Position numbers and translations under genes: made by a program. DNA of 35,407 bases from Bacillota bacterium (GTDB lineage: Bacteria > Bacillota > Dehalobacteriia > UBA4068 > UBA4997), in assembly GCA_021769035.1 (NCBI GenBank), contig JAETTP010000001.1, positions 1 to 35,407 of the forward strand, read 5' to 3'. The notes under the pieces were generated by a model that did not search any database, had not been told where the DNA came from, and worked only from the letters and a program-made list of their open reading frames with translations. Positions 5,897 to 20,461 of this stretch are shown one piece after another. Within the stretch, counting starts at the first letter, position 1. Each line of letters begins with the position of its first letter.

Positions 5897-5973
5897 TGGT
5901 GACACGTACGGGATTCGAACCCGTGAATGCCAGCGTGAAAGGCTGGTGAGTTAAACCGCTTCTCCAACGTGCC
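5897..5973 (-). tRNA. tRNA-Glu (UUC)
   Basis: The cloverleaf reads on the minus strand: acceptor GGCACGT with ACGTGTC, anticodon stem CCAGC/GCTGG around the loop CTTTCAC (anticodon UUC), T arm with GGTTCGAATCC, and an encoded CCA end. It is the last gene of a three-tRNA operon. Confidence 0.92.
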
Positions 5974-5976
5974 AAA

Positions 5977-6052
5977 TGGTGATCCATCCGCGATTCGAAC
6001 GCGGGACACCCTGATTAAAAGTCAGGTGCTCTGCCAGCTGAGCTAATGGATC
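5977..6052 (-). tRNA. tRNA-Lys (UUU)
   Basis: 76 nt with acceptor GATCCAT/ATGGATC, loop CTTTTAA (anticodon UUU), T-loop GTTCGAATC and encoded CCA. The D arm AGCTCAGCTGGCAGAGC is typical. It is the middle gene of the operon. Confidence 0.93.
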
Positions 6053-6055
6053 AGA

Positions 6056-6131
6056 TGGTGGACCATCACGGACTCGAACCGTGGACATTCTGATTAAGAG
6101 TCAGCTACTCTACCAACTGAGTTAATGGTCC
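6056..6131 (-). tRNA. tRNA-Lys (CUU)
   Basis: 76 nt with acceptor GGACCAT/ATGGTCC, loop CTCTTAA (anticodon CUU), T-loop GTTCGAGTC and encoded CCA. It is the first gene of the operon and reads AAG codons. Confidence 0.92.
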
Positions 6132-19223: not shown

Positions 19224-19503
19224 TGAACAACCAAAGAATGATGAGCGTCAGTTGGCTAATGAGCGGCAGCTGAGCCCGGAGCTTTTGGCGCGCCACGCGG
19301 CGGAGCTAGTTTGGGTGCAGGTGGAGCCGGCTAAAATCGACTGGTTTAATAAAATTGTGGAGGCCTATGACAACCTGGCCCTGGTAAGCACGGTGGACGC
19401 GGCGCAGGGCTTGCTGGTCTGCTGGGTGACGAACGATATGCGGCCGCTTTTGCTGAAGCTGTTGTCTAAATTGCCGGTTAAACCGGTACAAGCACCACTT
19501 TAA
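19216..19503 (+). CDS. DUF4911-like small protein
   Basis: 95 residues starting at the ATG after AGGAGG, overlapping the U32 stop by 8 bp. After a charged, low-complexity start of ~30 residues come VWVQVEPAKIDWFNKIVEAYDNLALVST, GLLVCWVTNDMRPLLLKLL. This resembles the short alpha-beta fold of DUF4911 proteins, which regularly follow U32 genes in related bacteria. No catalytic residues are apparent. A helper or regulator for the U32 enzyme is an inference from position. Confidence 0.65.
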   Translation: MNSEQPKNDERQLANERQLSPELLARHAAELVWVQVEPAKIDWFNKIVEAYDNLALVSTVDAAQGLLVCWVTNDMRPLLLKLLSKLPVKPVQAPL

Positions 19504-19561
19504 GCCAAAAGCATAGGCTATAATATGAATACTCCATAGAGAGAAAAAGGAGGTCCATATT

Positions 19562-20461
19562 ATGGCCAATAGACTTTGTACCTGTAGTGATGTTCCGTTT
19601 TACCACGATTGCGAGTGCTCCAACGGCACTTTGGGCGTGGAGGATATTTTTGAGGAGGTTATGCTGCGCGCCCGCGAGGCTGAGCTGTTTTACTGCTGCA
19701 TGGTGGAGCACGCCCAGTGCGAGGTGGATAAGGAGATGTTCCGCCAATTCAGCCTGGACCAGCGCCGCCACTACGCCCTGTTGCAGCAAATCCTGCGGGA
19801 GCTGACCTGCCAATGCTACTGTATCGGCGAGGTTTGCATCGAGGAGCCCACGGGCTTTTGCAAAGGGGTTAAGCTTGCCATCTACAATGAAATGCAGCTA
19901 AGCAACGACTATGAAAATCTGGCTTACTATCTGACAGATATGCAGCAAAGAGAGATTTTGCTCAGCATGATTCGGGATTCCCGCCAGCACGCCGAGCGCT
20001 TGGCAGAGCTTTACAAGTTTGCGCAGGACTGCGCCTGCCGCGACGTTGCCGACGAAACCACCGACGAATGTTGCTGCTGCTGCATGCCTTGTTGCTGTGG
20101 CTGCGGCTGCTGCAATGGCAAGTGTGACGGCAAAAAGAAAGATAAAAATGGCTGCTGCGGTTGCTGCGGCTGCGGGTTTATTCCTTTCTGCATGCCCGGT
20201 TGTTGCTGCAACTGCTCCGACGTTGAAAGCGCCGAGGACGAGGAAGATGAGGATTGCATCACCTACTGCTGCATGGACGACGACACCTGCCCGTGCAGCT
20301 GCGGCCGCAAGGTTGACAAACAGCGCAGCTGCAAAGGCAATCCGGCCCGCGTCAACAAATGCAAGAACAACGGCGTGGCCGGCGACACCGACGACTGCAA
20401 CTGCGGCTGCAAAAAGTGCAACTGCTCGGCTGTGCAGGGCCGCTGCTGGGGTTCCCGCTAA
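19562..20461 (+). CDS. Ferritin-like protein with a long cysteine-rich tail
   Basis: 299 residues of which about 50 are Cys. Residues ~25-155 look like a four-helix ferritin-like domain: EEVMLRAREAELFYCCMVEH, then LDQRRHYALLQQIL, EMQLSNDYENLAYYL and MIRDSRQHAERLAEL, with Glu/His placed as in di-iron helices. From ~155 on, short runs of CC, CCC and one CCCCC alternate with Gly, Lys and acidic patches (ESAEDEEDEDC), with CxC pairs to the end. The metal may be iron in the front domain and soft metals or Fe-S/zinc in the tail; this is inference. AAAGGAGG precedes the ATG, and TATAAT lies at 19519-19524 without a clear -35. A spore-coat or metallothionein-like role are alternatives. I know no named family with both parts. 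Confidence 0.75.
   Translation: MANRLCTCSDVPFYHDCECSNGTLGVEDIFEEVMLRAREAELFYCCMVEHAQCEVDKEMFRQFSLDQRRHYALLQQILRELTCQCYCIGEVCIEEPTGFCKGVKLAIYNEMQLSNDYENLAYYLTDMQQREILLSMIRDSRQHAERLAELYKFAQDCACRDVADETTDECCCCCMPCCCGCGCCNGKCDGKKKDKNGCCGCCGCGFIPFCMPGCCCNCSDVESAEDEEDEDCITYCCMDDDTCPCSCGRKVDKQRSCKGNPARVNKCKNNGVAGDTDDCNCGCKKCNCSAVQGRCWGSR

Follow-up and report, generated by a model that had tools for sequence, protein, structure and literature searches.

A cysteine-rich rubrerythrin-type protein with a sigma-K-type promoter, a probable spore-surface component of Candidatus Avidehalobacter

Introduction

What is a ferritin-like domain doing in front of a long, cysteine-packed tail? A gene raising this question lies in a 35,407-nucleotide stretch of DNA from a Bacillota genome (contig JAETTP010000001.1), called the window here. 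A sequence-only reading of the gene had considered iron or peroxide chemistry, storage of soft metals or sulfide, and a cross-linked coat protein. Several cysteine-rich, self-assembling spore proteins, including CsxA, ExsY/CotY and CdeC, are held together by disulfides that have been shown or proposed (PMC7333573, PMC7677010), and CdeC and CdeM are cysteine-rich exosporium morphogenetic proteins of C. difficile (PMC6101409, PMC7677010). What covers the spores of uncultured gut Clostridia is little known, and their rapid divergence makes coat proteins hard to detect by homology. We combined protein profiles, comparisons within the genus and its order, and an analysis of the upstream DNA.

Results

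The open reading frame at positions 19,562 to 20,461 of the forward strand (stop codon included) encodes a cysteine-rich ferritin-like protein of 299 amino acids, an assignment based on the reading frame, a Pfam match and homologues in the genus. It starts with ATG, and an AAGGAGG ribosome site lies at 19,547 to 19,553. The earlier estimate of about fifty cysteines was accurate: we counted exactly 50, with 14 in residues 1-162 and 36 in residues 163-299, and the N-terminal segment (residues 1-25; 19,562 to 19,636, forward strand) carries cysteines at C6, C8, C17 and C19. On inspection of the sequence, no signal peptide and no membrane or strongly hydrophobic stretch was apparent. The full-length protein was also found in seven more genomes of the genus at 67-96% identity. 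Differences between the window and the homologue L003 cluster at third codon positions, with a dN of 0.006 and a dS of 0.325 in the domain (dN/dS about 0.02) and a dN of 0.051 and a dS of 0.661 in the tail (dN/dS about 0.08); by this codon comparison, both parts are under strong purifying selection. Because the same full-length protein recurs in seven other genus genomes and dN/dS is low, the reading frame is, on comparative grounds, a genuine gene and not a chance one.

Residues 26-156 (19,637 to 20,029, forward strand) were assigned to a rubrerythrin/ferritin-like domain of two helix pairs using PF02915, profile matches to PDB entries and the ligand columns described below. The front part of the protein scored 27.5 bits against Pfam Rubrerythrin PF02915, above the curated gathering cut-off of 22.8, and all 18 family members scanned matched the same model (E ≤ 0.01). 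A profile built from the family matched the PDB entries 2fzf (3.7e-12) and 1vjx (2.7e-6) as well as symerythrin (3e-4). These sequence profiles agree with the ferritin-like front domain that had been claimed and support the front domain as a rubrerythrin/ferritin relative. That it has four helices is favored by the profile matches and by an internal two-fold repeat of helix pairs, in which each half has its tyrosine (Y44 or Y117) at +7 from its first ligand position (37 or E110) and its histidine (H70 or H143) at +26 from that tyrosine; the predicted models were too weak to use on this point. AlphaFold2 reached only low confidence for the full-length protein (pLDDT 33, using an 8-row genus alignment) and for the domain by itself (pLDDT 56), and a Foldseek search of the PDB with this low-confidence domain model gave no match at E ≤ 0.001. 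Because of this low confidence, we infer the fold from sequence. No rubredoxin-type domain was found in the protein.

The diiron ligand columns, 37, 67, 110 and 140, were set by aligning the protein to its relatives and to L001, a rubrerythrin encoded in the same genome, which anchors the columns of helices A, B and D; helix C aligns to it less cleanly. The protein in the window has A37, Q67, E110 and S140 at these positions, so that three of the four carboxylates are replaced and E110 is kept. Throughout the genus, the helix-A glutamate has become Ala37 and the helix-D glutamate Ser140, while the helix-B glutamate is Gln67 in four of eight genus sequences, leaving one or two of the four carboxylates in each. 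The histidines H70 and H143 are invariant within the genus and nearly so across the wider family. Since positions 37 and 140 are lost throughout the genus and position 67 in half of it, diiron catalysis is unlikely there, and the iron or peroxide chemistry that the sequence-only reading had suggested is disfavored for this genus; a structural role or another use of metal is possible. All four carboxylates and both histidines are present in eight relatives (L018, L019, L021, L022, L024, L027, L028 and L037), which span f1/g2, f3 and f5 among others and include a member of the sister genus, L018. Ligand loss is seen in other branches too, namely in L020/L023 and in most members of the largest family of the order.

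The cysteine-rich tail covers residues 163-299 (20,048 to 20,458, forward strand), where 36 cysteines are separated by acidic and Lys/Gly linkers; its 137 residues, close to the 140 first described, hold 12 CC, 10 CxC and 10 CxxC motifs. Over four comparisons, 20-32 of the 36 tail cysteines were retained, as were 33-87 of the 101 other tail residues. Judged by these alignments, the tail is real coding sequence, though its cysteine pattern drifts between species. We found the tail-bearing protein in eight of nine genomes of Candidatus Avidehalobacter, a gut genus of Peptococcaceae whose named genomes are MAGs, and a tail search of 35 genomes returned one copy per tail-carrying genus genome and nothing convincing outside the genus. 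Cysteine number rises in steps: members of the largest family have 1-6, those of intermediate families 11-19 and those of the genus 39-50. The tail of L006 contains NPC motifs (CCCCNPCCCNPCCC) resembling those reported as repeats in CdeC of C. difficile (PMC7677010), a likeness that is probably convergent. Directly past the stop codon of L004 and L005, from two species, lies an interspersed repeat of AACACTTA(A/G)CGA-type units.

Upstream of the gene, we identified a 28-bp sigma-K-type promoter at 19,493 to 19,520 on the forward strand, with evidence from genus conservation, consensus spacing and family enrichment. It consists of a -35 element CACC (19,493 to 19,496), a 15-bp spacer and the -10 element CATAGGCTA (19,512 to 19,520), and this CACC-N15-CATAGGCTA unit ends 41 bp ahead of the start codon. 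The B. subtilis sigma-K consensus has a 5-nt -35 and a 10-nt -10 element separated by 14-16 nt (PMC517825), and in C. difficile a -35 AC is characteristic of sigma-K, versus ATA for sigma-E (PMC3789822). The sigma-K pattern of AC (-35), a 16-17 bp spacer and CATANNNT(A) (-10) is present upstream of the gene. GCACC-N15-[C/A]ATA occurs in all eight genus loci amid otherwise diverged upstream DNA, with ACA.GCACC and ATA...T invariant, though these eight promoters share ancestry and hence do not represent eight independent events.

We then counted a strict, literature-derived pattern, AC-N16/17-CATANNNTR, in about 120 bp upstream of each gene. It was found at 9 of 29 ferritin-like homologues (shuffle mean 0.12, maximum 2). 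The positive control was dpaA, whose operon is under sigma-K in both C. difficile and B. subtilis (PMC3789822); the pattern preceded 19 of 28 dpaA genes in the same genomes (shuffle mean 0.14), whose identity is probable given matches below the NCBIfam cut-off. Upstream of other ORFs in the ferritin-like loci, the negative control, the count was 0 of 32. CATANNNTR alone was found at 52% of ferritin-like homologues, 93% of dpaA genes and 0% of other ORFs; many homologues in the largest family of the order have a CATA-type -10 element and lack a clear AC -35. Looser variants of the motif were chosen after viewing the sequences, and the strict count is the trustworthy one. A sigma-E-type -35 element was not enriched (1 of 27 homologues, 0 of 7 in the genus). 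The genome's own dpaA-like gene is preceded by a similar element, ACC-N16-CATAAGCT. For a second sigma-K control, YabG (PF05582), there was no match in 35 genomes. A genome scan with the strict form CACC-N14..16-CATANNNTA gave eight matches versus five for a reversed-pattern control, mostly antisense within genes; because the motif alone is not diagnostic in such a scan, the promoter argument rests on conservation and the controls.

Between promoter and start codon lies a 41-bp 5' leader with the ribosome site (19,521 to 19,561, forward strand), delimited by the genus alignment. It is near-invariant in all eight genus loci and partly common to L018 and L019, and could bind a regulator or contribute to mRNA stability. 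A CUCC:GGAG hairpin able to cover the ribosome site was not significant (z -0.61), and no Rfam elements were found close to the gene. Elsewhere, at L050 (G000:C34:21919-21947, reverse strand), CACC-N16-CATAGCCTA forms a near-identical promoter 32 bp ahead of a 49-aa ORF encoding a small, membrane-like, uncharacterised product (MDFILRYLCFAGL...), a candidate new sigma-K gene.

The genome itself encodes SpoIVA (8.2e-223) and SigE, both above cut-offs. A family member was found in 31 of 35 genomes of the order. One of the other genomes, G021, is without SpoIVA, has a weak SigE match only and has no dpaA match, so that the family gene is absent together with these markers in this single case. Of the remaining three, two are MAGs that are incomplete, at 78% and 65%. 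The last, G002, belongs to the same genus and is 92% complete, and no copy of the gene was found in it. By ORF inspection, the neighbors of the gene are mltG, a U32 peptidase gene, birA, bioY, coaX and dus. Because the gene stays beside birA, coaX or dus in several families, we regard the homologues in these families as positional orthologues. The window also contains three adjacent tRNA genes on the reverse strand (5,900 to 6,131).

Discussion

The sigma-K-type promoter, the spore-forming background, the cysteine richness, the lack of a signal peptide and the loss of the catalytic site together suggest that this is quite probably a disulfide-cross-linked structural protein of the spore coat or exosporium, produced by the mother cell at a late stage under sigma-K control. 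The coat-protein idea of the sequence-only reading thus gained ground from a conserved promoter backed by controls, a sporulating genome and the composition of the protein. That composition is the one expected of cysteine-rich spore-surface proteins, with 50 of 299 residues being cysteine, clustered as CC and CxC, in a protein lacking a signal peptide; no named coat-protein family was matched. A sigma-K promoter implies expression in the mother cell and is by itself no proof of assembly on the spore. We infer that assembly, and the disulfide lattice, by analogy. Transcription would begin late in the mother cell from the predicted promoter, the helical domain may serve as a folded oligomerisation unit that places the tails, and the protein would self-assemble into a layer on the spore surface. 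As this layer oxidises, the 50 cysteines would form disulfides within and between molecules and leave it insoluble and sensitive to reduction, as has been proposed for CsxA, ExsY/CotY and CdeC.

Comparison with known systems shows both likeness and difference. C. difficile CdeC and CdeM (PMC6101409, PMC7677010) are likewise very cysteine-rich, with CC motifs and Lys/Gly linkers; however, no family match links the proteins, no rubrerythrin-type domain has been described in CdeC, and the self-assembly reported for CdeC is a prediction for the Avidehalobacter protein. Cysteine richness is also shared with C. sporogenes CsxA and Bacillus CotY/ExsY, which have been proposed to form disulfide-linked two-dimensional lattices (PMC7333573), but these are unrelated in sequence as far as tested, and CsxA has 25 cysteines versus 50 here. 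With the rubrerythrin family PF02915 the protein shares two helix pairs, predicted here from sequence, conserved ExxH-type histidines and a tyrosine, and differs in the replacement of three of four diiron carboxylates, the lack of a rubredoxin domain and the added cysteine tail. The manganese catalases CotCB and CotD are ferritin-superfamily proteins. These catalases, of the CotJC type, are sigma-K-controlled coat components in C. difficile (PMC3789822), but they belong to another family and are annotated as catalases, whereas the protein here combines a degenerate metal site with a cysteine tail.

The main rival reading is a metallothionein-like store on or in the spore, in which the tail thiols would bind Zn, Cu, Cd or Fe-S species and the helical domain would act as a carrier. 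Dense CC, CxC and CxxC motifs (36 cysteines in 137 residues) and the conserved H70 and H143 fit such a store; yet no metallothionein family matched in Pfam or NCBIfam even at E ≤ 10, the neighboring genes (mltG, U32 peptidase, birA, bioY, coaX and dus) include no evident metal handlers, the drifting tail cysteines form no fixed metal-cluster array and the promoter is of sporulation type, and we consider metal storage unlikely. It is less likely still that the protein is an active diiron enzyme of the coat, a rubrerythrin-type peroxidase or ferroxidase whose tail would supply reducing thiols or an anchor. The eight relatives with intact ligands and the coat manganese catalases of C. difficile (PMC3789822) offer precedent, but the genus has Ala37 and Ser140 throughout and Gln67 in half its sequences, at columns of helices A, B and D that L001 confirms, and a rubredoxin-type domain was not found.

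A sigma-K-driven mother-cell protein acting off the spore surface, serving for example as a thiol or redox sink when the mother cell lyses, would fit the promoter evidence equally; a cysteine-rich, low-complexity composition typifies proteins of the coat and exosporium (PMC7333573), and we judge this reading to be very unlikely, slightly more so than the diiron enzyme. Some family members match the EncFtn-like model PF22277 and the NCBIfam EncB_fam/ferrit_encaps models, which raised the prospect of an encapsulated ferritin of the EncFtn/EncB kind, the cargo of an encapsulin. EncFtn is a two-helix protein, versus two predicted helix pairs per chain here, and in a search for shells of the PF04454 type, the shell gene was absent from the genome itself and 35 relatives (36 genomes) while control genomes were positive; encapsulin cargo is disfavored, and of all the readings it has the slimmest chance.

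The spore-surface protein that we favor probably descends from a diiron mini-rubrerythrin expressed under sigma-K, a form that would persist in the related families with intact ligands. The promoter test, the orthologous gene position and the ligand loss jointly nominate an order-wide coat family. That such a family of sigma-K mini-rubrerythrins, not described before, exists as part of the spore coat, and that the Candidatus Avidehalobacter lineage lost its diiron ligands and gained a 36-cysteine tail in a transition from enzyme to scaffold, is a tentative proposal to which we give slightly less than even chances. The lineage offers intermediates, with an intact diiron site alongside 2-19 cysteines and then a degenerate site alongside 39-50. 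A distant member, L024 (G053), has intact diiron ligands. Its N-terminus carries GGYPAGGYP repeats and its gene a promoter-like CACA/CATAGAATG element, which suggests that coat-type sequence of low complexity was fused separately to a rubrerythrin-type domain.

A literature search, partial in its coverage, found no rubrerythrin or ferritin-like domain joined to a cysteine-rich spore protein, and the combination of a rubrerythrin-type domain with a cysteine tail would be a new architecture among cysteine-rich spore-surface proteins. The promoter pattern validated on dpaA can be used to list more sigma-K genes in MAGs of the order. If true, the enzyme-to-scaffold transition would have produced this new architecture of spore-surface protein, and would provide a case, open to testing, of a metalloenzyme turning into a cross-linked structural protein.
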